DNA from: Membranipora membranacea
Taxonomy: Eukaryota > Bryozoa > Gymnolaemata > Cheilostomatida > Membraniporidae
Length of the DNA: 64,000 nt
Direction: 5' to 3'
NCBI GenBank assembly: GCA_914767715.1
Contig: OU612066.1
Location: 1,867,001 to 1,931,000, forward strand
Of this stretch, positions 12,201 to 56,467 are shown piece after piece. Positions within the stretch are counted from its first letter, which is position 1. Every line of letters starts with the position of its first letter. The translations under genes were made by a program, and so were the position numbers. The notes under the pieces are model-generated. The model was not told the origin of the DNA and did no database searches. It worked only from the letters and a program-made list of their open reading frames with translations.

Positions 12201-14193
12201 CTCTAGTCTCGTCGTAACAAAGTACATCAGCGTAACGATTCTTGTAGGTGTGAGCAGGCATGCTACAAGCAGTATCAACATACAAACACCAAGTATGGAC
12301 AACACTGGTCATGTAGAATATTTCATGAAACAATAACATAAAGGTTTCAGCCAAGACCTACTTAATTAGGCAATCTTCTTTTGGCACAGCTCAACCCAAC
12401 TTTATTTGAGAAAAGAATTACTGTACTAGAACATTCCATATATTACCAATATGAATAATTAATTTACAGCTCGAGTGCTCCACACATATCTAGCTCATCA
12501 CTCACCTTCCGACGTTGAATGTGCCAACGTATGGTTCGCCGCTCAGTGAATGAAACTGGGATATTAAGCCTGACACTCCCATCAGGCTAACCGCTTCAAA
12601 TAATCGAGCCACTGTTGTTAAATCCTCAATCAAATCAGGACTGAAGATTGAGTCTTCTAAGTTTGTTAGCCGATATATAGGCATAACCTCTGCCGATGCT
12701 GCCCTAAAATCAGAGGAGTATCTGTAATAGTGTCAATATTTTGAGCTGGGCTGTTAGTCAAGAAGACACCTAGCTAAAAGTGCTATAATGTGTTTAACTA
12801 AACGGGAGGGGACAACGCTAGACGGGATGCTCACTTTGTCGTGATGCCTACCCCTTACTTGCAACATTGCATATCATTCCTTCAAGGAGTTCTTACAAAA
12901 TGGCCACACAGACCCCTACTATTTTGCTTCGAATTTTCTATTGCGCCAATTTCTGAATATGGTGTCTGTATAAAAACTGCGTTGTTGCAGCCATATCTTG
13001 GTAATATGTAAACTTGTTTCTATCCCTACAACTCACTTGTTACCAGCACAAGAACATGCTGCCAAATGCTCGCAGATTTTAGCTATTCGCTTCCTCCTCC
13101 TTCTTGCCGTTCTTTTTTTTCCTTTGCTGGTTTTGGTGACAGGATTGACACTGTTGTAATCACTTTTTTCGTAATAAGTATAGTCATAAGCATCCTCTTC
13201 AGCCGGTTTACCAGAAGATAGCGGGGGTGGAGGAGGACGTGAAGGTGGTGCTTCTATGGCAAACCGAACTGGACTTAGTGAGTGCTTCAGACTACCCTGG
13301 GCTGAGAATGAGAGACGCGTAACATCATTAGAAGCATTCTGAGAACCAGGTCCAGATGTTCTGTCTCTGAAGTCAGGCTCATCTAGCTGATAAAGTTTAA
13401 CAGGGAGAGATGGAGGAGGGGCTGCGATTGAGTCTCGTGTCGAGTCCTCAGCCTCATAAGGTGCTGGCTCTGCTCCAACTTCTCTAGGTTTAATCACTGT
13501 TGAGTAATCTTCAGATGTTATACTCTTATGATGTGTCAACGTTTGGGGGGCTGGAGCAATCGCCCTTCTTTTCTCCACAATTGGTTTCATGCCACCCTGC
13601 CAGCTTGAGGCTTTCGGTGTATTGTCCATTATCTGGCTTATCGATTCAGTCACTAATGCAGCTTTATCCTTTATCAGTTCTTTAATTCTGACAGACGAAT
13701 CAAATATTTTTGCAAAAAGTCCTCCTTGTCTTTGTTTTTGTGTGGTAGAACTGATTGCGTTTGCAGAGCTACTAAGAACTAATTTTGGGGAATTAGGATC
13801 TGTCAAAGACTTACGGGTTGTTGCAACATTACTGTCACTTGAATGGTGTTTGTTGCGGCGAGATCTGCGAGGTAAGCCTGAGCCATGGTGCACAGCAGTG
13901 TCATGATGCTTCTGTCTGGTACCCCCTGTAGGTTCAGCAGCGTACACTTCTTCATCTGAGTCTGATTCATTAGGCTGCTGCTTTTTATGAGATTTATTCC
14001 GAGATCTGTTGCCAACTCTAGTATCAGGCGGATATGCAGCATCACGCCCATACACAGCATTACTCTCGTACACAGCTTCACTGTCGTACACAGCCCCATG
14101 AGGATCAGGCTGCTGAGAAAATCTTCCACTCACAGACTTCCTACCTGACTTATCTCTAAGGCCATGACCTCGGCCAGCGGGTGAACCATTCAT
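9240..14193 (-). CDS. Cytosolic PTPN9-like protein tyrosine phosphatase, paralogue B
   Basis: Classical Cys-dependent phosphotyrosine phosphatase, predicted 727 aa, removing phosphate from tyrosines of cellular proteins. Exons (gene order): 13037-14193, 12506-12721, 12023-12262, 10313-10463, 9841-9990, 9240-9509; phases agree throughout. The C-terminal catalytic domain has KNRYADV, the TDYINASYVNGY block, KCTQYWP, the WPDYGVP loop (Asp ~605), HCSAGVGRSGTF (nucleophile Cys ~650) and QTGEQYLF, all intact, so it should be active. By eye it is closest to human PTPN9, but no SEC14/CRAL-TRIO domain is present. The first exon encodes a disordered tail with four AVY-type tyrosine repeats (~34-54), a KDKAALV…KRRAIAPAP block (~175-216) and a basic HLAACSCA end. 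The intron after 12023 uses a GC donor. Head-to-tail paralogue of the gene at 14606-19364. Confidence 0.88.
11231..11674 (+). pseudogene. Decayed SGNH-hydrolase-like ORF (probable retroelement remnant)
   Basis: One frame on the plus strand, inside an intron of PTP gene B, reads KVLIIGDSH, then a TGA, ~66 codons, a second TGA, then a stretch with VIIMGLWPRA and finally DRVHLDERS before a stop. The GDS block near the start and the D-x-V-H block near the end are hallmarks of SGNH (GDSL) hydrolases, which occur in some metazoan retroelement proteins. Two in-frame stops and position in a host intron, in the opposite orientation, argue for a dead copy. Sequence from ~10860 may be part of the same element, including a TATATAAAG at ~11098. 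Confidence 0.55.
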
Positions 14194-14605
14194 CTCATGT
14201 CTTATGTTTTACGGTATAATAACAAAGTTTTATTATAACGCGAATGCTGTTCTTACATGCAAAAAAAAACAGGCTAGCCAAGCATTGTTGGCTGGCTATC
14301 TTTGTGTAGAAATGACCGTAAATCTCTATGTCTAAACAGGCCATTTCTATTGTTGTTAATATATTATTGCTAATTTTCCGGCCAATTTCTGGCCTAATTT
14401 TCTGACAAAATTGAATTGTTCTGTTCAAACACATAAAGCCTCTGAAGGCCGCCCAAGATAGAATGTAAACTAGAAAAATATCTCTATCAGGTTAATGTCG
14501 GTCACTCTCCGGCACAACCGTCACTATAAGATGAAAGTGTGCCGAAATATTCTGCACTGCATCGTCGTAATAAAATCCTATTTACAAGAACTGGCTTATT
14601 GCCTG
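14194..14605. promoter_or_regulatory. Short spacer between the two PTP genes; promoter of gene B
   Basis: Only 412 bp separate the stop of PTP gene A from the start codon of PTP gene B, both on the minus strand. The spacer must hold the end of A's 3' untranslated region and B's promoter. I see no clear TATA box; a poly-A run lies near 14263-14271. Co-transcription or read-through is possible but not shown. Confidence 0.35.
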
Positions 14606-17600
14606 TCATTCTTCAGCAGCGAGCAGCTTGATTAAATCTATATCTTTAGGAATCAGTCCTTGTCTCTGGGCGTATTCCAGAATAACAGAGTGACAAAATA
14701 CATATTGTTCTCCTGTCTGCACTGCGTAGGCCCTCTGCTGTCTTATTCCTCTGACAGTCCCCTGTACATTGACCTTGCCCATGTCATCTAACATGTATAT
14801 ACATATGTCTGCACAGATAAACGTCCCTGACCGGCCTACACCAGCGCTGCAGTGAACAATCATTGGAGGTCCTCGTGGATGCCCCTGAAGCAAAAGTTAA
14901 AAGTGGTTTATTAATTTGAAAATTGAAAAAGCTATCTCAATATTCACCATCTCACATAAAAAAAAATAGAAATACCATCATTTTTGCCATTTATGTTCTT
15001 GTCACATCATAAAAAACATTAGACACGATGAATTGTTGATGACAATAAAAATATTATATATATCCTCAGTCCTTCCGCAATATAATAATATAATCATGTA
15101 CGTTTTATTTTAGCCCATCTGTACTTACTTTCCATGCAGAACCTAAGGCGTCTGTAGCCAACTTTTGACATGTGCGAGCAGCAAACAAGAAATCAAGAAA
15201 GTCAGCAGCCGAGGAGGGAACACCATAATCAGGCCACAGCTGGAACAGCAGATGGTAAACTACCCTAGTCTCATTCGTCTGCAATAAACATAGACATATG
15301 TATGAGCCATAGACTCAATAATAAATATATTATTAAGTCTATGGTATGAGCTTGTTATTTCTACTGCAAATGAAGACAGTCCTCTGTGACAAGTGAACAC
15401 ACAATTGAGTAAATTATATTATGACGGTATCTAATAAGTAAGATTTGAATCTCATTTCAAAACTCTTGTGAGTAACAGCATGGTTGTACGCTTTCAGGAA
15501 AACTTGACAAAATTATGCAACAAGACACCAAACAACAGCGTAATTTTCTGTTGTGAATAATAATTTTTATGAAGGCTTTCCCTCAAATCTAAGAGTAGAG
15601 ACAACTTCTGCACTCTAGATTACAGATATAATTATTATAGTAGCACAAACCTCTTTATGAGTTATATTGAGTTTAGCTATCACGTGCTCTTCTGTAGTCT
15701 GTAGTCCAACATTCACCACCATAAACAAATCAAACTCTCTGCCGAGCATGTGAATCTCAGGCCAGTATTGATAGCATTTGGTTCGGCCTTTTTCTACTGC
15801 CCTAAAATCGTTGAAATTATTTAAATGGAATTAATGCAAACATTACTCATGATCAAGTTTGGGCTGAAACCCGTGCCCTTATAACCAGAAAGCACATCGA
15901 AATCTAGTAGCAAGATGTGGATTAATCTTTCAGTAAAGAAGGACAATAAAATGTTAAATGGTGTCTCAGCATAATGTGTTGACTAATTGATGTTTACCAT
16001 TATGTTAGTTAGGTAAGGGTAGAGTTCGATCACAAGTCAAGACTTCTTCAATGCAGAGAGAGTTGTCCCCACTTTAGTAGAGGCGCTTGCCATACTCACG
16101 TTGCGCATTAGAACAATGCTTCTCTTTATATCAAGGAAACAGGATGATACTATAACTCAATGTATCGGGAGTGCAGACATACAATAAAACTTCCAAAGTT
16201 TTGCATTTTGCAAGGACTTGGCTAGGACGAATGGCGGGCCAGTACTAAATCAGGGTTTATTGGGGGCGACAAGAATTGAACCTGCCGTAAGCTCAGTACC
16301 CTTATCCTCTAGATTACCTCTAGATTACCTCTGCCCCGGCCCCAGGGCTCTCAACCACTCAGATTCAGCCCGAGTTACTCAGGTACTTGGGTTCAACCCA
16401 GGCAACTCAGGGGATTCTAGAATAAAAGGTAAAAACTCAGATTTTGCCTCATATTCATCGAAGTTGGCGAATTCCTCTCGGTGTGGCCTAGTTGTATGAT
16501 TAGAACGAAACAATTTTATGTTGTGATATATGAAATACATTAACCAGGATGAATTTCACAGTGATTCTATACTAAAAGACCAGTATCATTCATGTGCAGA
16601 GGCCTAAATTTATCTCTAGACTCTGGAGGCCGGACCCATGGAGGAGGCTAACAGAGCTCTAAAACTGTAAGCTGTTTGTGCACAGGGCATTTCACGCCTT
16701 TGAAATGTCACCTGCAGCATGGTATCGGCAAAACTCAGGTTTTGGATCCTCCCAGGTTGAGAGCCCTGCCCGGCCCCCTGGTGCCATTGCTATCTTTGTT
16801 CAGTCAAGTTGCTTCCATGCTTCTAATTATGATGATGATGATGATAGATTTCTATGGGCTTTGGGATAATAAATTGTTTTGAGCAGAACAATTCTGTCAT
16901 GTTTCATAATGATGTTTGTAATAATTACTGTGGTATTTTAAGCAGGGTAGCAAAATAGAATAGATATAAAACATTTGTTGATGAGAGTGTACCTTGTAGT
17001 CATGACGATAACCCTGACATTCTCCTGCCAGACCATACGCCAAAAGTCGCCGCTTGTTCTCTGCAGAGGACCCTGACAGGCAATGTAGGCGTTCTTTTGC
17101 TGGTAACCATTCACAAAACTGGCATTGATAAAATCAGTTGTAGAATCGTCGTCTATGGGATCTAGTATGACTCGAGTACTGTCGTAGCACAGCACATCAG
17201 AATACCGATTCTTTGCAGCGTTGGCTTTTAGTCTGGTAAAGAAGTAAAGTGTATCGAAGCTTTTCAGGCGCAGGTTCTCTTGACACAAGGTTGTAGATTT
17301 GAATATTATCAGAATTTTATGGCTTGGAATTGCCAGAAAGGAAAGCCTTTTTTTCTTTCTTTAGCTATCGAATATGCAAGGAAAAATATGGTGGTGCTTC
17401 ACGTCATTGCTTCCAAAGCACCAATCAACGGCACATGGATGGCTAGCAGGCAGGGTACTTGCCAGGTAAGTAAATATGGATAAAAATGATTTGAAATTCA
17501 AGGTAACTTGAAGGGTCACTCAACTACAACTAATCTCCCTGAAATGAGGAACTGGAACAAGGCACTTACTTGGCAATTGTAAATTTATCAGCAAACTTCT

Positions 17601-19364
17601 CATTGGTTAGGAAAAAATACTGTGACGTGATGCCATTTGCTTTATGCAGTGAGACAACCTCAAAGAAACGAGTAGCTGTCATAAGGCCGGGCATGTTTGG
17701 TTTGAAGGTTGACTCATAGAGATCTTTTGTCTCATCCGTAGGTTTAGTTGATGATTCAGCAGGTGGTGATGTGTGTGTATCAGGTTGTCCCGGTTTAGTG
17801 GAGGATGGTTGTGTAGGTGGTTGATTGGAGGATGGTTGTGTAGGTGTGAGTACTGAGGAACTGGCAGGAGTGGAGGGCGCCGGAGTAAAGGGTGCGAGCG
17901 CTTTCTGCCCATCTCCATCTGACTCATTCCTAAAATCACCAATGAAAATAAAGGGCCAAGTTCTTGTTACGATGAATTTATATTGAGATCTTTCAATTTT
18001 ATGATCATGTTTCTAAACCATCCCACCCCTTCTAACGTTTGTTAATACTAATAATAATTTATCAGGTGTGGAAGGTTACTGATTTTTGGGCTAATTTTCA
18101 CACATTTCTGGAATCGAGGATGATCGATTATTATGTTAATAAATTTTTGTTATGATATGAATTTGAGACAAACTTACTTATCTTTTGCACATGTGCAGGC
18201 AGCAAGATGGCCACAAAGTTTGGCCAGTCTATTCTTCCTCGGCTTTTTACGTTTCTCAGGACTAGTTACAGATGAATACACCGAAGACATGTCAAGATCA
18301 TCAGCCCCGAGGTTAGCTGTAGCAGGAGATAAGTTAGCGGAGGCTACAATGGCGGCCTGATCTTCTGCTGCTGAATACTCAACAGGCTTGGAAGGCTTTC
18401 TCCTTCTAAGTTGTGGTGGGCGAGCTTGTTGCTTGGGTAAGTCTGCTGTAGGTAAGGGCAATGCGGGTAGTATAAGGTCAGATAGTAGGGCGGCCCTCAT
18501 AGCAGCTAATTCATCTAGATCTGCTTGTGGTATGCCTATCAGTAGGGGAGCTGGAGAGGGTTCGGGAAGTTTAGGCTCTTTTAAGGATGTTCTGCGTTTA
18601 ATAAAACTGTCTGGTTCAGAATTCTTCCTATCTCTCTCATCAGCTGACTTAATCTCATGCTTGAGGTTAATTTCTGGCGCCGATGAATATGCAGAGTTTT
18701 GTTTGTTCATGTCCTTTAAAATATCTTCAATATTTAATGTGTCAGTGATAGGAGTGATGATAACTCCAGATGTCTCGTCTGGAGGGGCTGGAGCAATGGC
18801 TCTACGCTTCTCATTGATGGGCGTCAAACCACCTATCCTGCCAATTCGAGGCTTTGTCTCATCTATGACTTGATGAATTGACTCTTTGACTAAGGCAGCC
18901 TTTTCTTTTAACACATCTATTCCAGGCTGCAAGGCAACTTTAAGCTTAGATGTTGACTCAACTAGTTTATCCTTTATTTTTCGGCTGAAATCCATGAGTT
19001 GAGAGCTTGAGGACCTGTGAGATTTGCTCATAGTTGACACTGCAAGTCCCTGAGAGTGTGAGTCATGTAACGAGAATGATTTTCTCACAGGGGCAACTTC
19101 ATCATCACTGTTCTGTTTAACTTTAACACCAGTATACAAATCATCTTTAGTATATTCCACCATCTCCACGGCAGCACCTGATTTGACTTCTTCCTTTTCG
19201 ACGACATTATCAGAGTCACGGCGCTGAGATCCCTCAGCGGAATCTCCGTCTGACGTCCGATCCTCCTCGCCATCAGTGAGTGGTTCTATTTTAGCACTGT
19301 TGTTGTGTTGCACTTGCCTCTCTAACTGCATACGCAACTTTCTACAAGCCTCTCCAATTTCCAT
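14606..19364 (-). CDS. Cytosolic PTPN9-like protein tyrosine phosphatase, paralogue A
   Basis: Predicted 788-aa phosphotyrosine phosphatase. Exons in gene order: 18178-19364, 17570-17929, 16993-17232, 15651-15801, 15129-15278, 14606-14884; all GT-AG and in phase. Exons 3-5 (240, 151, 150 bp) have exactly the sizes of those in paralogue B. Catalytic motifs are intact: KNRYSDV, the TDFINASFVNGY block, KCYQYWP, WPDYGVP (Asp ~663), HCSAGVGRSGTF (Cys ~708), QTGEQYVF. No signal peptide or membrane helix. The long first exon encodes a charged, probably disordered region with KEKAALV…KRRAIAPAP (~152-194) and ends in basic residues plus LCGHLAACTCA; both blocks recur in paralogue B. Exon 2 adds a Pro/Thr/Ser-rich linker. 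I chose the ATG at 19364 because upstream codons in frame are not ATG. Confidence 0.88.
16185..16320 (-). repeat. tRNA-derived SINE copy (minus orientation)
   Basis: On the minus strand 16320-16255 resembles a tRNA: an A-box-like start (GGTAATCTAGAGGATAAGGG), an anticodon-arm region and a B-box-like GGTTCAATTCTTG. Its continuation (GATTTAGTACTGGCC, then GCCATTCGTCCTAGCC) matches the body of the copy at 30703-30975. The rest of the body appears truncated. It lies in an intron of PTP gene A. Confidence 0.6.
16480..16845 (+). repeat. Possible second SINE-like repeat ending in (GAT)n
   Basis: The segment starts near GTGGCCTAGTTGTATG, weakly like a tRNA A box, and ends in a TGATGATGATGATGAT tail at 16828-16845, a 3' end style seen in many SINEs. 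I have no second copy in the window to confirm it. Confidence 0.3.
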
Positions 19365-24634: not shown

Positions 24635-27600
24635 TCAGCTGACAAGTCCCCTCGGTTTGTTAGGATTGATCAGTTTATCAGCTTTACCCGCACTACCTCT
24701 TCTTGGTTTTAGCTGATACTCCGTTCCCATATACAATGTGCTGATATCTGCAGCTTCCTGTCAAACACAGCAATGTTATCTTGGAAGGGATGGTTCTTCA
24801 ACGAGTAATAGGCCTATTCATTCTATAATCCTCACACTTTTACAAATCACATAACACAGGGATGGTGACACAGTTCTCTGGTTTTATTCATGATTCGTCA
24901 TGAAGAATTAACCAATGGAATGCAATCAATTCAAAATGTTAGTGTGAGTTCTGGATAAGGCAGATACTTACAGGGTCATATGCTGACTTTCCTGGTTTGC
25001 TGCGAGAAACCTTCCCGGAGTCTTTTCCTACAACCATTATGCGTCAGAGTGATAAATACAAACACAGACTCAATCAGCTAGGGTTTATTTTCACATGAAT
25101 CAAGCATCCAATAGTTGCTGGGGTTTGCAGAATTAGCTTGCTGTAGTTGTTCCCCCATTAGCAATGAGAAGACAACTACGATATTTCCATTTAGTGGGTG
25201 CACCATAGACTTAGCAATGCCTGTTGATTTCTCAGCAGGAGGAATATCTCATAGTTAGCAAAGCCACACCCACCTAATCTAGCTTTCTTTCCTTTGTGAG
25301 TTGAATCATAGTTTGTTGGATTGTTGGAACTGTAATATTTCTCTTTGTCCTTGTCATAATCATATTCATACATGTTACCGCCATCATTCACTGGTTCATA
25401 GGCATAGACAAAGAGTTTTTTTTCACATGAAACAAGCATCTAATAGGCGCTGGGGTTTGCAGAATTAGCTCGCTGCAGTTGTCCCCCCATTAGCAATGAG
25501 AAGACAACTACGATATTCCCATTTGGTGCATCATAGACTTAGCAATAACCAGCGTATCAATCGCAATGACTAGACTTTATGCCTATTAATTTAAAAGGCT
25601 TTCACTGCTACATGATTGCATTACAAAATAAAGTAGAGTTACGCTGTAGTACGTTGGATAGGCCCTGGGGGCCTATGTCTGGGAGTCTGTCTTCAAATAA
25701 TGTCTCAAGACACCTATGAGACTTGAGTAACAAAAGGTTTTGTTTGGTGTACAATGGCAGGCAAAGTTGTCTGAATACGTGTTGGATGTGTGTGATCAAT
25801 GGTTGGAGGAACTGTCTTGTAGCCTCAGTTCTCCACTTTTCCTACACTCATTTGTATACACAATCTCAGCAGGAGGAGAATCTCCTTGTTAGCTAAACCA
25901 CACCTACCTATTTTAGCTTTCTTTCCTTTGTTAGTTGAATCATAGTTCGTTGGATTGTTGGAACTGTAATCTTTCTCCTTGTCATAAACTTCTTCATACA
26001 TGTTGCCGCCATCATTCTCTGGTTGATAGACATAGAGTTATATTCATCCAATAGTTGCTGGGGTTTGCAAAACTAGCTCACTGCAGTTGTACCCCCATTA
26101 GCAATGAGAAGACAACTACAATATTCCCATTTAGTACGTGTACTAACAATAACCAGAGGGGTCTTTCAATTAGAAACATCCCAATCTGATCGCTGACTCA
26201 GTGAGTGAGCAATACCTGCTAGGCTCGCGCTTTCAAATCCCTCAGTCAATGATTTGACTATTTAAATTCTGAGTGAGCGATTTGGGAGCGAATTTTTCTA
26301 TTTGAAAGACCAAGTGAGTGATAATTTTGAGCGATGTGATAGTGATAACTTGCTTTCGTAAAGCATCGCTCTTTCTAATTGAAAGACCCTCTGTGTATCA
26401 CTCATAATGACTAGACTTTACAGTTTTACCTTATAATCTCAAAAATTAAGTCTATGCCTATTAATCTAAAAGGCTTTCACTGCTGCTGATTTCTCAGCAG
26501 GAGGAATATCTCATAGTTAGCTAAATCGCACCCACCTGATTTGGCTTTCTTTCCTTTGTTATTTGAATCATAGTTTGTTGGATTGTTGGAACTGTAATAT
26601 TTCTCTTTGTCCTTGTCATAATCATATTCATACATGTTGCCGCCATCATTCACTGGTTCATAGGCATAGACATAGAGTTTTTTTTTCACATGAAACAAGC
26701 ATCCAATAGGCGCTGGTGTTGCAGAATTAGCTCGCTGTAGTTGTACCCCCATTAGCAATGAGAAGACAACTACGATATTCCCATTTGGTGGGACCACCAT
26801 AGACATAGCACTAATCAGTGTATCAGTCATAATGACTCAAATTTACACTTTTCCTTAAACATGAACCTGATATTCTCAAACATTGAGTCCATGCCTGTTA
26901 ATTTAAAAGGCTTTCACTGCTGCTGATTTCTCAGCAGGAGGAATATCTCATAGATAGCTAAACCGCACCCACCTGATTTGGCTTTCTTTCCATTGTTATT
27001 TGAATCATAGTTCGTTGGATTGTTGGAACTGTAATATTTCTCTTTGTCCTTGTCATAAACATCTTCATACATGTTGCCACCATCATTCACTGGTTCATAG
27101 ACACCAGGGGCAGCACCTCCAGCCTCATACAGATTCTCCGGCTGTCGACCAAACGACACCTGATTATCGCTATGAGGTCGGGCTGCCGCTGTATCATACA
27201 TATTCCCTCCTTTATTGTAAGTGTTCTCATACAAATTGTCAGGCTTAGCAGTGTTTTCATACATGTTATCAGGTTTAGCAGAGCCGTACAAATTGTTACG
27301 ATTAGCGCGACCTGTTGTCTCATACATAGTTTTGTCCCCCAGACCGTCATACACATTACTAGGACCTTGAGGGCCACTTGAGGCGTAGACTCCAGGAACG
27401 CCATCCAGCCCTTCATACAAATTTGTGGGGCCTTTAGCGCCGCTAGTGGCATAATCTGCTGGCGTGTAGTCTCCTGGTTGGTTAGCCAGTCCCGTATACA
27501 GATTCTCTCCAGCTCGGTGACTGCTGTAATGTTTTGACCCTGACGGCTTTCTTTTACCTGATAAATTAAAAATACAAAGAGGATTAAATTCAATGATAAA

Positions 27601-30600
27601 ACAATACATTTTTAGCAAAGAAGCCCTTAGGTGCTTTCGATTATTGACCACCATTCTGCTTACTTCGGGTGTCCTCAGAGTATCCCAAACCAAGTTTAGC
27701 TGAATTTCGTTAGCATGGTTACATCTCTCAGTAAGTCAAACACATCATATCTTACCCATAGCTTGACTCTTTCCCTTCTGATCAAACACAGTTTCTGGTT
27801 GATATTCTAAAACAGATCACAATGATATTGCTGATGATCAAGCAAAAGCCAAACTATCCGACATTAACGCAATTACACTTATTTACTTGATTAATTCCGT
27901 AGTTTTATTATTTTATACTGCCGCACGGTAATAAAGTATAAGTTAAGTTGTGTTGGGTTAGATGCGTGTACATATGGTTATACGCAGGTATACCATATAT
28001 GTGTATACTGTGCATATATTGTATAAGTAGACATTGATAAGACATACCATCACTGTAATAGTTCTGCTCGTATATGTAATACTCATACTCCCCTCTCACC
28101 TCTTTCCTCTTAGTCTCCTGCCTTTCCTACAAGAGCAGAGCCAACAAACATATAACTCATCATCCATACATACTCAAGTTAGCCAGAAACAAGTCTGCAG
28201 TGGCTATTTTATGGTTTAGAATAACGAGTGGCAAGTCTAAATTAACTTGCTAAGTTCCGTCCTAATGTGTAAGCTTTTGGTGAATTGATAATTTCAAAAT
28301 TGAAGCATAAAAATTTCATATTTTCAATAAAATACTCTTCATATTATATACACTCCAAATTTCAACCATAAATCTGATAAAATGTACGTTAATAAAAAAC
28401 AGTTTCTACCTCCTTTTTCTCTATAGCTTACCTTTGATGATTTAGATCTATGTTTAGATTTAGAACCTGTGTTATAATATGTCTCTCCTCCGATATCAGG
28501 CTGTATCGAATTACCTCCTGAATAATATAATATAATATCAGGCAACAATACAATATGAGAGTTGTATTTTTAATTTGTGATGATCCCATTAAATCGGTAT
28601 ATAATTTTGAGACATATTAAATAAATTCTTACCATCAGTTACAGAGCGTATTCATCTCTACATATCTTACATGAGTATTTCACAGTTACACCGGTATAAA
28701 TATCAATCATTCATATCCTTTCACTCACCAGGTTTGATCCCTGAGGCCACAGCAAACTTGGCACTGCTTCCGCCCAGTTTATTATTGGATGCAGCATGTA
28801 AGACATTAGATACGCTGCCCTGGTTAGAAGTCCCAGGTTTGGCTTGAGAAGCATTTTTATCGTCATAATAGTATTCGTACTCGTACTTCGGCGGCGGCTC
28901 TACAGATAAATAAGGTATGTACTGAGTGTTATCAGCACTCTAACGTTAGATACATGACTCCATTGTGTGTAAGACATGTAAACATTATGAATACTTGTGA
29001 TTTGACATGAATATATTTTTTTCACGTTTTGGAATTGGCTACTGCTAGATGAAGCAGGGAGGGATGAAGTTTGATCCATTTTTCCAGCGTTGGAATTGCC
29101 CCCCTCTAATGACACCGTTCGGCGTGTCAGAAGAGGGGGCAATTCTAACGCTGGCAAAATGGATCAACCTTCATCTAGACTACTTCTACTATTTGATGAC
29201 AGAGTGACTTTAGATGTGCAGCAACATAAGTTGACAATTAGCAGCTTATCCCGAGGCAGGAGCATTCCCTGGATATAAGACCGATCCAAGCAGAGATATA
29301 TCCTGATTGTAAACTGCTACTGTAAACAGCCCAAATACAGAGCTGAATGTTGAACTGAACTGCTGGCTAACAAGCAAGTATATATAGTGCATTACAATGA
29401 CTTACCTTTACCTTTCCTCTTTCCGTGTTTTGTGCTCTTCTTACCAGCCGCTGCCTGATCGACGACCTCTTCATAGTTAACATCGATATCTTTAAGCTTA
29501 TCCATCAGGATCTTCTGTTTGTTCTCGGCTTTCTTAGATGCCATCTGTAAGCGGATCTCATGTAGGTTCAAGCTTATAATCATCAGTGATTTTACTCTCT
29601 CTCTTTTTTTTTAAATTCTCACAACCAACATCTGTGTTTAGCCTCAAGTGACAGCCCCAAGTTTGACCCCAGAGGTTACGCAGTCAAAGACCTATGTTCA
29701 TGGCACTTTTTGAAAAACATTCTTTACTGAATGATAACATTGGTTTGAAAAAATTAAAAGATATTACGCTTCTTAATTCATCTCCATGAGACTTTTCTTT
29801 CTCTTACTGAATTGGCAGCGCATGGACTGATTATGGGAGGTGTTATACAGTCTAAATATACTAACGTTCATGATTTCCTGATTTGCTTGTTCCTGGGCCA
29901 TACCCATCAGCTTCTGTTGGTTGATTGAACCCTGTGTTAGCTGTAGCTGTAGCAGAAACTTTTTATATAATGCAATGCCTTGAGCCTTTCTGATTTCCTG
30001 TAATATAATTAGAAAGTATTGTTCAGCTTATGATCTATTTACTGGTATCTACATGAGCCCTCCAAACCAAAGGCGAGGTGCTTCTCCTGTATGTAAGGTA
30101 GAGGCTCGGCTTTTCCTAGAAAATTTCAAATAATGTTGGTACCGCAGACATAGCTCATGTTGTAAAATGTAAAAGCTGCAAATACATTGCTGCGGATACG
30201 ATGCTGAATTCACACAATCAGGTTCAAAGACTGATGATGTATTGTGTGATCCAACGGTTGGTGACAGATGCTTAATCAAAATTTAAATATTTAGAGAGTG
30301 AAAAGATAGTTTCCCATATTTCATGAGATATTTGAATGACAGTAACAATTTTGTAAGAAAATAAATTATAGAGTTTTCACTTCCAACTCATCTCTTTTGT
30401 GATCATGGAAAAAAAACCATAATCATATAATCAAAGCCATGATGATGATCGAATGACTGGTGGACTCAATGACCGCTAGGGAAAGGAAGCTTAACATACC
30501 TCGAGATATTTCTGCATCATTTTCTGATAGTGCAATTGTGCGGTGGTGATTTTACGGATCTGATCTGCCTGTAGCTGCCGTTGTTTTAACATGGCTGCCA

Positions 30601-32456
30601 ATGTCTGACGCTGCTGCTCGTATATCATCTGCTGCTGCTGCATTCTCATTCTATCAAAATATCCTGTCTGATAGTTGTGGCATATAACAAAAATAGGCAA
30701 AATGTTACAAGTGGTCTAATGGTTAAGGGTACGGGACTGAGGTCCTTGTGCCAAGTTTCAATTCTTGACGCCGGCAGTCATTACTGATTTGGTACAGGCC
30801 TACCATTCATCCTAGCCTAATTAGACTAAAAATGCTAGAGGCCCACATGTAGTAAAATGATTTCTCTCAGCTTCTTTGATAAATAGGAAATCCAGTGTCC
30901 GGGAGGCGTGGGTATAGGCTGAAGCATGCATGAGTACTATGGGTCCCAGTACTTGTATTCAAGGCGGGATAACTTTCTCCGATTAAAATATGGTGATGAT
31001 GATTTAACAAACAATACGCCAATTTCATAATTCAGAACTCTGGGTGATTAAGAGAAACCTGCATTCTTAGAAAAATTTAGTTTAGAGCATTGTGTGATAA
31101 TTTATTAATGGATGGGATCAGATCAGATAAACAAGCCTTGCTGCGTATGTATAACTCACCCCAGTGCTTCCTGTGGAGTACCCATCATCTGAGAGGGAGT
31201 GGCGTTTATACCAAACTGCTGAGAGGGCTGCTGATGAAACTGTTCAGATGGACGGCCCATCATACCAAACTGCTGGTGAGAAGGACTGGAGAACACACTG
31301 CCGACCTGTTGTTGAGAAGGTCGGGAGAACATACCAACCTGTTGTTGCTGTGATGGAGCTGCGTGTATAACCATCATATTAGATGCCCGAGATCTATGTG
31401 GGTCAGCAGCTATAGCCCTAGGCGTAACTGATCCCTTCCATACATGGCGTTGTTTGTAGTTACTGTCCCCACAAATCTTAAATATTAGAAATCTACCCGC
31501 AACGTAAATCAATGCTGCAACAAAAAAACCAGCTATCGGGAGAAATATGAGTAACCATATAAATAAACCCTCCTTTTGCCAGTCTTTTTCGATGAATGAT
31601 AACGTTCTCTCTACAAAAATACCAAATGTGCAACATCAATATATCTCACATGAAATGAACATCATGATAAACGAACGTCCCATAAGATTAATCATAAGCT
31701 CTGTACTACTCCTCTAGAGCAAAATACAGAATGTTGTTGTGGATTGATCAAAGAAGTTTCTGTATTGTCTTTGTACATAACCTAGTTAGAGCCAGCCGCT
31801 GGATGGATCCTGAGGTAACATTATTAACTTTAAATGATAAGTCAGCGGCCAGACAGACAAAGTCCTTTATGCCGTAACAAATTACCTGTTTGTTCACCCT
31901 ACACAAGAAAATGTTATATAAAACTTTAATCTTAGAGTTCAGCAATTGGCGTGATCTAACTCCACGCCAATTAACTGACTAAAAACAAATGGCCCAAACT
32001 CATCCAAGTCTAAGCGGCTATAATATAATAAGTTTGTGGCGCATAAACAGTAAAGATAACACAGTAGATATAACTCGCTCACCTGTTGAAGACATTCATC
32101 AAGCTGATGAGAATAAATCACAATCTTGGATTCATGAATACAAAAGTTATAGTAAGAGTTCTGGTTAGGTGTGAGTGTTACGCGCTCACACTCAGTTGGT
32201 AATATTAATGTCATTGTGCGGATAACTTTATTAGTACGTAGGAATGGCGATAATGTCGACACTGAGCAAGTTTGCCTAGTGGTGACAATGACTGTAAGGA
32301 GAAGTGAGATTCATCCTCACTCTGATGCATTATTTGTTGATAATCGTATTAAAATGTTGTGCATTTGTAGACAAAAGGCATCGTGGAGAAACTCCGCATT
32401 GCAGGTTTTTATTTTTGGTGTTCTATCAACAAGCGTAGACAAACAAATAAAAATAA
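24635..32456 (-). CDS. Multi-tyrosine single-pass membrane protein (receptor/docking type)
   Basis: Exons in gene order: 32321-~32456, 32083-32291, 31782-31885, 31160-31606, 30500-30667, 29866-29997, 29406-29544, 28729-28899, 28432-28517, 28048-28126, 27756-27806, 26973-27557, 24972-25027, 24635-24757. From 30667 to the stop all phases agree. Predicted order: a short ectodomain with about eight Cys; one helix (LFIWLLIFLPIAGFFVAALI, ~31535) followed by basic residues; a Gln/Ser-rich part; a Gln-rich coiled coil; a Lys-rich segment; then tyrosine-rich exons. Exon 26973-27557 alone has motifs such as NLYTGL, NLYEGL, NVYDGL, NMYENT, NLYENT, NMYDTA and NLYEAG. YENT fits the known pYxN rule for GRB2-type SH2 domains. 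No kinase domain. The start codon and the junction 31160/30667 are unresolved, so an exon may be missing. Likely a phosphotyrosine docking receptor. Confidence 0.7.
25195..25405 (-). pseudogene. Decayed duplicate of the tyrosine exon end, copy 3
   Basis: Encodes YEPVNDGGNMYEYDYDKDKE and continues like the 3' part of exon 26973-27557, including the NPTNYDS motif and the former donor region. It has no recognisable acceptor of its own, so it is probably not spliced into the message. Confidence 0.6.
25850..26035 (-). pseudogene. Decayed duplicate of the tyrosine exon end, copy 2
   Basis: Reads YQPENDGGNMYEEVYDKEKD and then a NPTNYDS block, with a donor-like AAAATAG|GTAGGT at its end. It is the most diverged of the three duplicates and again lacks a clear acceptor. 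Confidence 0.55.
26155..26392. mobile_element. 238-bp MITE with ~22-bp terminal inverted repeats
   Basis: The left end AGAGGGGTCTTTCAATTAG is repeated inverted at the right end (CTAATTGAAAGACCCTCT), with one base of length difference. The interior has repeated GAGTGAG/GAGCGA words and no coding potential. It sits in an intron of the multi-tyrosine gene, between two of the exon duplicates. Confidence 0.7.
26470..26665 (-). pseudogene. Decayed duplicate of the tyrosine exon end, copy 1
   Basis: Encodes YEPVNDGGNMYEYDYDKDKE, the NPTNYDS block and KKAKSG followed by the same GTGGGT donor as the functional exon. The flanking block beginning ggctttcactgctgctgatt is also shared. No acceptor is visible; homology breaks off just upstream of YEPV. 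Confidence 0.6.
29045..29178. mobile_element. 134-bp foldback MITE in an intron
   Basis: CTAGATGAAG at the left and CTTCATCTAG at the right begin an almost complete palindrome that includes ATCCATTTTTCCAGCGTT, GGAATTGCCCCCCTC and a TGACAC centre, with a loop of only a few bases. It lies between exons 29406-29544 and 28729-28899 of the multi-tyrosine gene. Confidence 0.75.
30703..30975 (+). repeat. tRNA-derived SINE copy (plus orientation)
   Basis: Starts with a tRNA-like head: GTGGTCTAATGGTTAAGGG (A box region), a GGACTGAGGTCC arm and a degenerate B box (TTTCAATTCTTG). The body, with GATTTGGTACAGGCC and then CCATTCATCCTAGCC, matches the copy at 16185-16320 in order and spacing. The probable 3' end is a TGGTGATGATGAT tail near 31000. 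It is inserted between exons of the multi-tyrosine gene, opposite in orientation. Confidence 0.65.
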
Positions 32457-33252
32457 CAACATCTCAACATCTTGGAATTCTCTCACCCTAGCTGTTGGTT
32501 CTCCACATGTTTAATAAAATTATACAATTTTTTAAATGTGCTGGTTGATTAATATGAGCATAGAGGGTCTGACTGAAAGATAAGAAGCTCCTCTTTAGGT
32601 TGTGTTAATAAAGGAGCTTGTGTTTAACTTCAAGTTAGGATATGAATGTTAATGTTAATGTCATATCTTGGAGCATTGAGTCTATATTCAAATTTATCAC
32701 ATTTTATAGCACAGGTATCTTCAAGCCTACATCAAAAAAAGAGAAAATATAATTTGAATCAATATAAAAATAATGTTAATTTATTTTCATGGTCTCAACA
32801 TCCCAATCACAGGGAATTTTCTTGACACATGTATGTCAGGTATACAGACGGGTAAGCCAAAAACTGAATAACTTGAGAAAAAAAAGGTTTCCAGGCTATT
32901 TTATGTTGGTTGTATTGCAATATCATGGGCGGTGTTTAAAATGGTCAGTTACAAAAATATAGTGGATTCGAGGAATGTTTAATAGCAGAAGGGAAGTGAA
33001 TAGAAATAAAGTTCACTTTCCAGACTTATTAAGAGATAGTTTGTAACTTGTGAGCAGCGTCAACTTCGGCATCAGACAGGCATACAGATGAGAGTATAAC
33101 CCAGTATGGCAAGTAGGGAGACAGGTAGGATGACAGGTAGGGAGACAGGTAGGGTGACAGGTGGAGTGACAGGTACGCATATGTAGCAAGTACCTGTTAC
33201 AGACGCTCACACTTGTAGATGGTGGATTGTTCTTCTGACACTATGAGGAGGT
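32457..33252. other. Spacer between HPS5 and the multi-tyrosine gene
   Basis: No coding exon supported. It must hold the HPS5 3' untranslated region and the start of the downstream gene in the same orientation. A frame reading MLLFLFVCLRLLI near 32450 looks like a signal peptide but hits a stop and does not join cleanly to the next exon. Confidence 0.35.
33107..33175 (+). repeat. Short 12-bp minisatellite
   Basis: About five to six units of a variable 12-mer (GACAGGTAGGGA and variants), just beyond the end of the HPS5 coding sequence on its 3' side. Confidence 0.75.
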
Positions 33253-50429: not shown

Positions 50430-50566
50430 AAAATTTGAAACTAGCCGAGCTGCGCCACACATAAATTGCCCCTAGCCAAGCTGCGCCACATGTAAATTGC
50501 ATGTAGCCGAGCTGCGCCATTCCCAATTTATTTTCCCATGTGGCGCAGCTTGTCTGCCGTAGACCC
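50430..50566 (-). repeat. GGCGCAGCTCGGCTAGA element, copy 2
   Basis: Reverse-complement relative of 46403-46544: three CTAGCCGAGCTGCGCCA units then one inverted TGGCGCAGCTTGTCTGC unit. It ends about 90 bp before the TMEM106 start codon, so it probably lies in the promoter or 5' untranslated region. Confidence 0.75.
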
Positions 50567-50657
50567 CCACAATACTGTGTCATGTTTAGTTGAGATTTCA
50601 GGTATAGGTCAGGACCTTGAAATATGTGAAGTTCCAACAAAAAATGTTCACATTTGT

Positions 50658-53600
50658 ATGGTTACTCCAGAAAATCAGAAGGGACCTGATATAATGTCTG
50701 TGAATTCGCCTCCATCTCCACATAGTTCCAATGGGAGAAGTAGCAGTTATGGGACATTATCTGTGAATTCACCTCCAACTTCTCCACAGAACTGCACTGG
50801 TCACAGTTATGAAGAGTTTCTGGCTGATAATATAGAATGTCCTACCTGCAGAGGACTGGGCAGAATAAAAAAAGGTACATCACATACTTACCTTGTCACA
50901 TGTAATTTCCTTTCCATACATACACTTAGTTTGAGTTGAGGATCCAATATAGCTGATGCAACCTTTTTGAAAGCACCAATCAATGAGTAGAGTAATAGCA
51001 AGGAAGCTTTTTACTCCTTGGTAGTAGTAATATCATATAACATATATGAGTGTACTCTATGCCAGTTATAAAAAAACTTTTTTGCAAGCAAATCTTCCAA
51101 CCTAACAAGCTCAAGCTTACTTAATTCATCCCTATATACAGTATATGATTGTTTTGTTATAGACTTTGATTTTTCATCTAGCTTATTCATTCATTTAATC
51201 TTGTTATGGTTAGTGTGGACAAAGGGTGGGATTTATAATAATAGTGGGTAATGAGAGTTGGTATAATTGGAGTAAGTGTGTCAACAGCGCAACAAATCCT
51301 AAAGGACAACACTGCAACAGGAAAAACTCAAAAGTGACCGCCGCAATGGATAATTTTTGGGTGCAATCATTTTGCAAAGTTTCTGGTTATACAGCTTTCC
51401 TTTTTGGTGTTTTCACTCATGGAATTACCTCATGAACCGATTGACAATTCACATCATTCCAAGAAAAAAAAATACAAACAATCCCTCTGGTAAGCCATCT
51501 GCTGCTAGTTTTCTACTCCCATATTCTTCTTATTCCTATTTCTACTTTTTTACTATTAAAATTTACATGTACGCTGTATTGCATAGGGTGACGATGGACA
51601 GTGCTGTAAGATGAGAAAACATAACTCTGAGTAGTGAGTAGCGGACATGATAATGAGTGCCATCAACCCATTCTTTTTTAGGAATGGTGAGATGGCGCAA
51701 TCGCTTGCTATTCACTACCAGGCAATTGTGGGTTCGAAACCTACTGGGGGAGCTTTCAAGGTTTATTGTTCCATCACCCTTTGGTGTACACAAGTCCTCT
51801 CCTATTCAAATCTGCTTTGAAAAAACTAAATCTGAACCATTTACCGAAAAATGGTTGTCGCCAGAAAACTAACAGTTATATTTTCAGATTGAGAAACCCC
51901 CTGCATACAACATGGCAACATGGCAACATCATAACTGATCTGCATATTATATTACTTCCTTACTTTGGAATCGAGTCATAGTCATAGTGGTATGGTTTGT
52001 CATCATGGAATATGATAATTCAAAAAAAAATTTGGACAGCGAAGATGGTATGATTTCCTGGTGGCGTCATGTCACCATGCTGACACCTAGTCTATCGGTG
52101 GATCCTTATGCAATATAGGGCTTTCCCTTCAGCTCTATCATGAATTATATAAACTGGTGTTACTTTTGAGCCAACACAGACTTTTGCTTATGTAGGCCTA
52201 GCTATAGGTAAATAAATGAGTGTATGCTTTTGTGCAATGAATCATTTTACACTCTTTACATTCATTAAGTTTAAATGAAATTCTACTTGGCATGTAACTA
52301 ATGTTTATGCTGCAATCAATGTTTTTGTGCTAGGCATTCCTCTCTTTTCGTGTGCACGCTGAAAACCTGCTGTCCTATCAATCACTGGTTTCGCTGTTAG
52401 ACAGTATATGTGGCAATGTACATAATGAGATGATGCCAATGTCAAAATCTAAATTCAATATCAACTTTTTATGATACTGGAATATGTTCTACCTATGTTA
52501 TCTTCACTGTTATTATTTGTCAGGTAATGCTGAACTGGTGGCACTCATACCAGTCAATGACAAAAGACTCAAACCAAGAAAAACGTAAGCATTTGTAGTG
52601 ACTTGCTATACTATCAACAAAAAAACCTCATGCCTAAAAACTGTGACACCAAAATATATACCCGCTCAATTTATTTCCATCTATGGCAACATATTTCCCG
52701 TGAGATTGCTGCTATCATTTTGTAATGTATCCCATTATTTTGTGAAGTTAGGAGTGACTGTGTTGCTAATACGATATTCATGTTTGTATTTATATTATTT
52801 CAGATTTCTATACGTGTTAATAGCTGTGATAATATGCTCCTTGATAGCTGGAATGCTGCTATTTTTCCTAATATCTCGCTCCATCACTCTTGATTCGGAG
52901 GATGAGATTATTTCTCCCACTATACTACAGAAGATTAAAGGAGAGGAGATGATATTCATGGAGTATCAGGTAAGTTTTCTGTTCTGTCAAGCAGTTAAAT
53001 GAGGAAGTGATTAGGCTTCTTAATTATAAGTTGGAAAGTAAATGAGCTATAATTTGTATGAGCATGGGTGAGAATCACGAGTATGAAACAGTTTTGCTCA
53101 CGTCCAGGTTACATGTATGCCTATATAATGTATCTGAAATTACAAGGTTAAAGGTTAAATCAGAGACAAAAGATTTAGTTTCTATAGTCTCTGGTGAGAT
53201 AATTTAACACCACTTGACTCATGGCTTCTTGCCAGAGACCTGGGTGTTGTGATTGTGGATCAGGAACGACTCGGAATGCAGGCAAATGGACCAAACTTGG
53301 CCTAGGTGATTGAGTATGACAAACATTGGATACATGACCTTTGTACTCAGAGAGTCACAATTCCTAATTTTTACTCATATTATGGTAATTAGTCATGTTT
53401 TTATGTGCCTAACTTCATAACAGGGACCATAGATATCTATCATCTCTGTCGTAGTAACTGGATTTAATTCTTATGAGTGAGATAAGACCCTGCAAAATTA
53501 CAGCAGACATCAAGGTCTCTGATACCTAGACTAGGTGCTCAAATGGGTCAGGAGCTGTAGCATTTTATTGTCAACCATATTACCAGCAAGGGTATATGGC

Positions 53601-55037: not shown

Positions 55038-55998
55038 CCCAGCCCGACACTAGGCGATGGTATACCAGTCATATTAGCTGATATTTAGATGTCTGTGTGG
55101 CTGTGTCTGGGCAGGACAAAGTTCGGTGAACCGCCTCACCATAATGATGAGTCTGCTACTGTAACTTCCTTGTCTGTATTGGTTTTGGCGTAGCTTTAGT
55201 AAGGAGTGTACCAAACGTTGCCAGAATATTTTTTATATTTGACTCCACGACTACCTCCAATGCCTGTATAAAGATACCATTGCATTTCACTTTATTATTG
55301 TCATAAAGTAGATGCCAGTTATTCATGTCTATGTATTTGTGATGTTACCAAGGAGTGATGCTACAATGAGCTGTAAATTGGGATGACTGATTTTACTCCC
55401 AGTTCATAGTAAGTACATACAGAGTTATGGCGATGTTGTTTTCTGTTCTTGGACGAACCAAAAATGTTATACTATCTCTTTACTTCTCATATAGAGATAA
55501 TATATCTGTCCAAATCTCAAATGGATTTTTGGTTTCATGACAATTTTATTTTACTATGATCATGTCTTGTCTTTTTCCGTAGCTTGCCAGTATCGATAGG
55601 TTTGCATTTATGTTGTTTTTTATAATTTATTTTGGTGATGCTTGTCTGATGGGATTCTTTCTAAGCAATTGAAAATAGTATTTTCAAACCCTAACTTGGA
55701 GCTTGTCTGGTCTAGCTCAGATGGTGGAGAATGCCTCCCCTCCCTCTTCTCTACAACAAGGCAGACCAGGGAAGGCCACATTGTTGCCAGTTATTTTTGA
55801 TGTCAAGTACTCTATTTGTAAATTTTTTTTTTCATAAAAATTCTTTCTTGCACTTTCTTATTTTATCACCAGTCTCCACATATAACTCAAATTACATGTT
55901 GATATTATATTTATTTTACAGATAGGGCATAATCATAATTCATAATATAATGTTGACTGGTTAATGAATATAAATATATTGATAACAAATATTAATGT
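55038..55998. other. 3' flank of TMEM106, convergent intergenic
   Basis: No coding exon supported. It should contain the TMEM106 3' untranslated region. A weakly tRNA-like GGTCTAGCTCAGATGGTGG at ~55707 may be another SINE head. Confidence 0.35.
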
Positions 55999-56251
55999 TT
56001 TCACACCACTGAACTCGATAGTACTATTCTGTGTTTCACACCACTGAACTCGATAGTACTATTCTGTGTTTCACACCACTGAACTCGATAGTACTATTCT
56101 GTGTTTCACACCACTGAACTCGATAGTACTATTCTGTGTTTCACACAATCACACCACTGAACTCGATAGTACTATTCTGTGTTTCACACCACTGAACTCG
56201 ATAGTACTATTCTGTGTTTCACACCACTGAACTCGATAGTACTATTCTGTG
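55999..56251 (+). repeat. Minisatellite, 35 bp x 7
   Basis: Seven units of a 35-bp sequence starting TTTCACACCACTGAACTCG and ending TAGTACTATTCTGTG. They appear identical except unit 5 (56139-56181), which has an 8-bp insertion (AATCACAC). The array lies between the converging TMEM106 gene and the unknown gene ending at 56468. Confidence 0.95.
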
Positions 56252-56467
56252 TTTCGAACATGGTATTGTGTTATACTGGATAAAAAACACAAATGTGACT
56301 CTGATAAAAAATTCAATAAATCAAGACATTAGTTTCTAGGAGGATAAATCGCACAACCTTCTCTCAGGACAGGATAGGCCGTACTGCTCTACTACTACTT
56401 ATTTATGACTAGAAAGCGCCGCACAAGTTACACAACCAGCATAATTAATAAATAACTCGTACTACTG

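Follow-up and report, generated by a model that had tools for sequence, protein, structure and literature searches.

Introduction

Phosphotyrosine signalling needs docking proteins. FRS2, DOK, IRS and GAB carry a PTB or PH domain, docking by Dof and FRS2 uses multiple tyrosine motifs, and in LAT a minimal ectodomain is combined with a juxtamembrane CxxC. In this study we analysed a 64,000-nucleotide (nt) stretch of the genome of the bryozoan Membranipora membranacea (assembly GCA_914767715.1, contig OU612066.1, positions 1,867,001 to 1,931,000; hereafter the window, to whose numbering coordinates without a contig refer), and we describe an orphan gene on its minus strand that encodes a predicted membrane protein with a tyrosine-rich tail. 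In the literature, LAT is described as a transmembrane (TM) adaptor that builds multivalent assemblies (PMC6624021), Dof, a docking protein of FGFR, is defined by a DBB domain (PMC7260276), and BCAR1 has 15 YxxP motifs, of which ten or more are phosphorylated by Src (PMC3983058, PMC5043372). Three putative TM proteins of Salpingoeca rosetta (PTSG_05573, 12435 and 12436) are described as having cytosolic YxxP repeats, and two of their phosphopeptides, EM-pYDVP-RS and DM-pYDVP-RN, bound a choanoflagellate Crk SH2 domain (PMC5043372). In the sponges, ctenophores and placozoans taken as representatives, FRS2 and Dof were reported to be missing, while a sponge was found to have Grb2, Crkl, Sos and Shp2 (PMC7260276). 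We read the bryozoan gene, with a probability that we put at about 0.57, as encoding a lineage-restricted, single-pass (type I) TM phosphotyrosine docking scaffold.

Results

The gene model consists of 16 exons (E2 to E17) on the minus strand from 32422 to 24635, all with GT-AG borders and in phase, which join into a single 886-residue frame with the stop at 24635 (Table 1). Its predicted tail of 745 residues contains 59 Tyr, 1 Cys and 2 sequons and can be divided into Gln/Ser-rich, probably helical and Tyr-rich parts. A preceding interpretation made from the letters alone (the sequence-only reading) had pointed to six N-x-Y peptides, and all six lie in the exon at 27557-26973 (E12), minus strand, in frame with the TM exon at 31608-31160. 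The tail has 10 matches to the pattern N-[LVMI]-Y-[ED], compared with a mean of 0.08 and a maximum of 3 in shuffled sequences (0 of 5000 reach 10), and E12 alone contains 7 against a shuffle mean of 0.03. Within E12, 12 of the 20 tyrosines stand in the context [NGT]-[LVM]-Y, spaced by 27, 10, 12, 9, 12, 9, 10, 11, 23, 10 and 10 residues, so that 9 of the 11 intervals measure 9-12 residues and the sites are about 10 apart. The Tyr-rich patches that had been noted in three earlier exons are also present, as YEYEYYYDD in E8, ETYYN in E9 and EYEYYIYEQNYYSD in E10.

The residues around these tyrosines were compared with published kinase preferences. According to these, human tyrosine kinases generally select an aliphatic residue at -1 and +3, whereas Ser is disfavoured at -1 and Glu at +3; at +1, most non-receptor kinases favour Glu and most receptor kinases disfavour it (PMC11136658). 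Our +1 test counts both Glu and Asp; the published preference names Glu, and Asp is an extension made in this analysis. In the tail, I, L, V or M precedes 21 of the 59 tyrosines (8.1 expected), and 16 of the 59 combine this with an acidic +1 residue, 12 times Glu and 4 times Asp (0.91 expected, reached in 0 of 2000 shuffles), while Ser stands at -1 of none (5.1 expected). Among the 20 tyrosines of E12, 13 have the aliphatic -1 residue and 10 also the acidic +1 residue (shuffle mean 0.23, 0 of 2000); Ser at -1 and Glu at +3 are both absent there (0 of 20). The same context test showed no enrichment in the catalytic domain of a neighbouring phosphatase (0 of 12) or in the 21725+ gene (0 of 8); it gave 1 of 7 in the N-terminal part of the first neighbouring phosphatase (339 of 2000 shuffles) and 2 of 13 in the N-terminal exon of the second (24 of 2000). 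As read from the sequence, an aliphatic -1 with an acidic +1 residue fits the published preferences of human tyrosine kinases.

The modelled ectodomain has 112 residues with 6 Cys and one sequon; a short, Cys-containing ectodomain had been proposed before, with a count of about eight Cys that the model does not reproduce. Folded alone, the ectodomain exon E3 was uninformative (predicted local distance difference test, pLDDT, 47.9). The TM segment has a hydropathy of 2.69 over 19 residues, the highest in the protein, and the K+R/D+E counts in the 15 residues on each side of it are 3/3 before and 4/1 after. Because these charge flanks fit a tail that lies inside, we infer a cytoplasmic location. 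If the topology were inverted, or the TM exon belonged to another transcript, the tail would be extracellular or secreted and its acidic tyrosines might be sulphated. The E8 and E10 patches resemble tyrosine-sulphation sites; however, positive residues follow the TM segment, 6 Cys and a sequon precede it compared with 1 Cys and 2 sequons in the whole tail, and the residue at -1 of the N-x-Y sites is L, V or M rather than an acid, which makes this alternative very unlikely in our view.

Ahead of the Tyr region lies a Gln-rich stretch of 116 proline-free residues (249-364), which is probably helical: E5 (50 aa), folded alone by single-sequence AlphaFold2, was modelled as one helix with a pLDDT of 95.6. 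The sequence-only reading had placed a Gln-rich coiled coil here. Its helical part is probable, and the coiled coil was dropped, as a simple heptad test gave it no support (859 of 1000 shuffles score equal or higher). Codon log-odds were trained on three neighbouring reading frames and come out above zero in the modelled frame of 14 of the 16 exons (E4 to E17). That the helix and tyrosine exons form one gene, as proposed earlier, is backed by the phase-consistent GT-AG chain at the level of the genome.

The Tyr array appears to have grown in part by exon duplication. The segment formed by the final 39 codons of E12 is found again in E13, E14 and E15, whose lengths are all divisible by 3 and which are of phase 1-1, and the intron flanks of E13 to E15 were copied along with the Tyr segment. 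The sequence-only reading does not mention these three copies. Judging by their phase, these frame-neutral copies could be included or skipped by splicing. The introns between them contain a 117-nt repeat in four copies (25080-26790), of which the others are 72-91% identical to the reference. Within E12, Tandem Repeats Finder reported one short array (27220-27281, 2.1 copies of 30 nt), and codon likeness around the sites was 32% over the three codons that precede them, 38% over the three that follow and 31% further upstream, with 26% given by base composition. Because the flanking codons are so little alike, most of the E12 ladder seems old or convergent and not a recent DNA repeat. The related argument from a higher likeness within the motif windows than in their flanks (47% vs 31%) is weakened, since the windows were chosen by motif and their likeness is largely by construction.

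No relatives of the protein were detected in the searches made. In Pfam, the modelled protein gave no family at E 1, and the region 24.6-37.9 kb, scanned in all three minus frames and one plus frame, gave none at 0.05; no kinase domain was found in either scan, in line with the sequence-only reading. The best PDB matches had E values of 0.26 (ectodomain with TM) and 0.75 (E8 to E12), both at chance level, and neither Pfam nor PDB yielded a clear match to a known structural protein family; such a match is what the sequence-only reading had named as a refutation. Word-based searches of limited sensitivity against approximately 5.8 billion proteins gave 5993 candidates for the full-length protein, not one of which reached E 0.001, and 921 for the E12 reading frame, not one of which reached E 1. 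Viral contigs contained no homologue, Rfam gave no match in the window, and the literature, judged by title among the matches listed, showed nothing on this protein or motif. As a database control, a neighbouring phosphatase matched 437 proteins at E 0.001 or better, the best named ones being animal proteins. Coverage of the phosphatase by the 120 listed matches is 49% at most; the covered part is taken to be the catalytic half. This suggests that the database covers many animals and apparently no close relative of the species, and for this reason the missing homologues do not show that the gene is confined to a narrow clade. In the species' own genome (18 contigs, 339,339,785 bases; E2 and E13 to E17 not searched separately), part of E3-E4, E5 to E11 and E12 each matched only this locus among the best candidates scored, and the matches of E12 beyond itself were only its own exon copies.

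Several observations weigh against a docking scaffold. The tail contains 8 YxxL/I/V/M sites compared with 8.05 expected, and no match to the immunoreceptor tyrosine-based activation motif (ITAM; Yxx[LI]-x(6-12)-Yxx[LI]), NPxY or YxxP; the corresponding inhibitory (ITIM) pattern occurs once and YxN three times. At +3, an aliphatic residue or Phe is found for 9 of the 59 tyrosines (8.8 expected, thus at chance) and the disfavoured Glu for 7 (3.3 expected; 71 of 2000 shuffles reach it). In E8 to E11 only 1 of 14 tyrosines has the -1/+1 context and 4 of 14 have Glu at +3. Nor do the shuffles take account of repeat ancestry, so duplication contributes to the number of motifs counted. The resemblance to a phosphotyrosine docking receptor or adaptor that was claimed at the outset holds for the kinase-like -1/+1 context and fails for ITAM, NPxY, YxxP and the early patches. 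Such a tail might instead be structural or serve trafficking, either in sorting or as a linker of cytoskeletal or condensate-forming type, its tyrosines being aromatic stickers and not phosphosites. The 59 Tyr in 745 residues, the Gln-rich and Lys-rich parts and the early Tyr patches without kinase context would all suit it. However, stickers need no fixed -2, -1 and +1 residues, and here Asn, an aliphatic residue and an acid recur at these positions far beyond composition; the absence of NPxY and the chance level of YxxL/I/V/M also speak against this alternative. We consider this alternative unlikely, if still worth keeping in view.

The gene model has its own weak points. Its splice borders were hand-picked to suit the frame, which makes phase agreement a necessary property and not an independent proof; the codon log-odds are negative for the ectodomain exons E2 and E3; a different frame, interrupted by one stop in each exon, gives E5 and E6 the higher score; and the E2-E3 intron has 45 nt compared with 198-517 nt for the other 14 introns. 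Two scans found no clean or convincing alternative first exon. The start and the ectodomain exons of the model are accordingly uncertain. An ATG at 32462 is a possible start if the A-rich run at ~32404-32418 contains an indel; otherwise the stretch that it opens would be no more than the pyrimidine tract ahead of E2. Since the model rests on genomic sequence with hand-chosen borders, the exons might belong to two genes, one for a membrane protein (E2 to E7 or E2 to E11) and one for a Tyr-rich protein (E12 to E17), or might not all be co-transcribed. Against such a split, every junction phase matches and E2 to E17 contain no in-frame stop before the last codon, and we regard it as improbable that the presumed single transcript would come apart.

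Finally, the ratio of nonsynonymous to synonymous change (dN/dS), although below 1 in all six pairs of the four Tyr-segment copies (0.28-0.82), is based on 2-4 synonymous differences per pair. The gene might also encode a fast-evolving surface protein whose tail is a kinase sink or decoy rather than a docking platform. The lack of homologues among ~5.8 billion proteins would agree with rapid evolution, though apparently no close relative is among them, and the dN/dS ratios, few as the differences are, point the other way; we give this idea hardly any credence.

If the protein is a docking scaffold, its small and probably disulphide-bonded ectodomain would anchor or cluster it, and the helical segment would space or oligomerise it. 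The presumably disordered tail would then display the N-[LVM]-Y-[E/D] ladder with sites about 10 residues apart, which non-receptor (Src-like) tyrosine kinases would phosphorylate, SH2 proteins might bind at several sites at once and tyrosine phosphatases would reset. Splicing of the three frame-neutral Tyr exons in or out may tune the number of docking sites. The genome contains domains of all three classes, with at least 44 SH2, at least 155 PK_Tyr_Ser-Thr and at least 158 phosphatase matches; these are exon-level matches at E 0.001 or better and thus lower bounds, and the PK_Tyr_Ser-Thr model also matches Ser/Thr kinases. At nine places, read by eye, an SH2 match is followed within 6 kb on the same strand by a kinase match (contigs C1, C2, C6 and C7 once each, C11 twice, C4 three times), an arrangement as expected of genes for non-receptor tyrosine kinases. 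A further locus, C9:12128490-12135640, has SH2 matches with phosphatase matches behind them, as expected of Shp2.

Two predicted phosphatase genes, PTP1 and PTP2, lie in tandem downstream of the Tyr-motif gene on the same strand. The highest 19-residue hydropathy of PTP1 is 1.58, indicating no clear TM segment. Their long N-terminal exons (18178-19364 and ~13039-14199) are 38% alike over 111 residues, and their last exons share a 121-nt stretch with a DNA identity of 82%. Kinship of the Tyr-motif gene with these Tyr-bearing N-terminal exons was considered and rejected, as the best E value in the window was 0.21 (tblastn without composition correction; not significant) and the pairwise values were 1.1 for the first and 2.7 for the second. 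The nearness of the phosphatases may be chance, because phosphatase matches in the genome are so numerous and many are clustered. They are densest on contigs C3, C6, C8 and C11, and the domain matches suggest a large phosphatase expansion in this genome.

The window also contains other features. The E7-E8 intron contains an inverted repeat (29063-29175) that resembles a small transposon, its 41-nt arms being 93% complementary and separated by 31 nt. Stretches resembling tRNA-derived short interspersed nuclear elements (SINEs) were seen by eye at 30715-30790 and ~16270-16340 (GGTTAAGGGTAC); SINE-like matches in the window number 5 compared with 3.1 by chance, which is within chance. A repeat array with a spacing of mostly 35 nt occupies 55966-56295, and a plus-strand reading frame at 50496-50936 has a weak TMEM106 N-terminal match (17.9 bits vs a curated cut-off of 24.5).

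Table 1. Positions of the modelled Tyr-motif gene, its predicted parts and the two phosphatase genes in the window.
Feature	Coordinates	Strand	Basis or remark
ATG and 17-residue signal-peptide-like stretch	32412..32462	-	frame translations, position read by hand; just upstream of E2, in a different frame
E2, ectodomain exon, 2 Cys, NAS sequon at end	32321..32422	-	gene model; weak
E3, ectodomain exon, 4 Cys	32083..32275	-	one frame open; others 4 and 9 stops
E4, TM segment and Gln/Ser/Pro-rich juxtamembrane region	31160..31608	-	gene model; codon log-odds positive
Predicted TM helix, model residues 113-141	31480..31566	-	hydropathy maximum; positive flank on C-terminal side
E5, Gln-rich helix (predicted)	30500..30650	-	gene model; single-sequence AlphaFold2
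E6, presumed helical	29866..29997	-	gene model; no proline
E7, presumed helix end and Lys-rich linker	29406..29544	-	gene model
E8, Tyr patch PPPKYEYEYYYDD, one PPxY	28729..28899	-	gene model
E9	28432..28517	-	gene model
E10, Tyr patch EYEYYIYEQNYYSD	28048..28126	-	gene model
E11	27756..27806	-	gene model
E12, main Tyr exon, 20 Tyr, 7 N-[LVMI]-Y-[ED]	26973..27557	-	gene model, motif count
E13, copy 2 of the Tyr segment ending E12, NDGGNMYEYDYDKDKEKYYSSNNPTNYD	26536..26652	-	gene model, repeat comparison
E14, copy 3 (NMYEEVYD), 6 nt shorter	25908..26018	-	gene model, repeat comparison
E15, copy 4	25274..25390	-	gene model, repeat comparison
E16	24972..25027	-	gene model
E17, C-terminus and stop	24635..24757	-	gene model
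PTP1 phosphatase gene	19364-14606	-	788-residue model; catalytic HCSAGVGRSG intact
PTP2 phosphatase gene	~14199 to 9300	-	model

Discussion

By analogy, the orphan would work like known docking proteins, but for none of the groups tested does it have the domain or motif that defines the group. A receptor tyrosine kinase, an ITAM receptor, BCAR1/Cas and the known docking families were each rejected, as no kinase domain, ITAM, YxxP or Pfam family was found. If the docking reading is true, an orphan ladder of kinase-like sites would show how docking platforms arise anew, with their valence changing by exon duplication. In a bolder version, which we put forward tentatively and with more doubt than belief, this lineage-restricted receptor would constitute an independent docking system. 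Its N-[LVM]-Y-[E/D] ladder would be a substrate code of non-receptor kinases, with its valence set by Tyr-exon splicing, possibly in the place of FRS2/Dof in a lineage that lacks them.

The likeness to Dof and FRS2 would lie in the docking role; they differ in that the modelled protein has no Pfam family, PTB, PH and DBB included. With LAT-type adaptors the present protein would share a TM anchor, a long tail with many tyrosines and no catalytic domain, and multivalent docking, the topology being predicted here; in contrast to LAT, it has about 112 modelled ectodomain residues (from the least certain exons) with 6 Cys, and a single juxtamembrane Cys. The substrate domain of BCAR1/p130Cas, as described in the cited texts, resembles the putative ladder in being disordered, in its similar Tyr motifs, and in Src-type phosphorylation and SH2 readout (PMC3983058, PMC5043372), whereas the SH3 and FAT-like domains and the YxxP motifs of BCAR1 were not found here.

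The closest plan is that of the choanoflagellate YxxP proteins. The sequence-only reading had recognised no known family, which stands for sequence (Pfam, PDB and protein databases) and less so for architecture, since tails with repeated tyrosine motifs have already been described in putative membrane proteins of a choanoflagellate. The comparison is made by description, and the full-length database search gave no homologue at E 0.001 or better. Our protein differs in having 0 YxxP, Asn at -2, a Cys-containing ectodomain, a long predicted helix and duplicated Tyr exons. As presented in the source, the two would share the same plan, a membrane protein with a short Tyr motif repeated in its predicted cytosolic part and no other domain, and the choanoflagellate peptides that bound Crk SH2 resemble, by eye, the NM-Y-EDV/EEV sites of the present protein.

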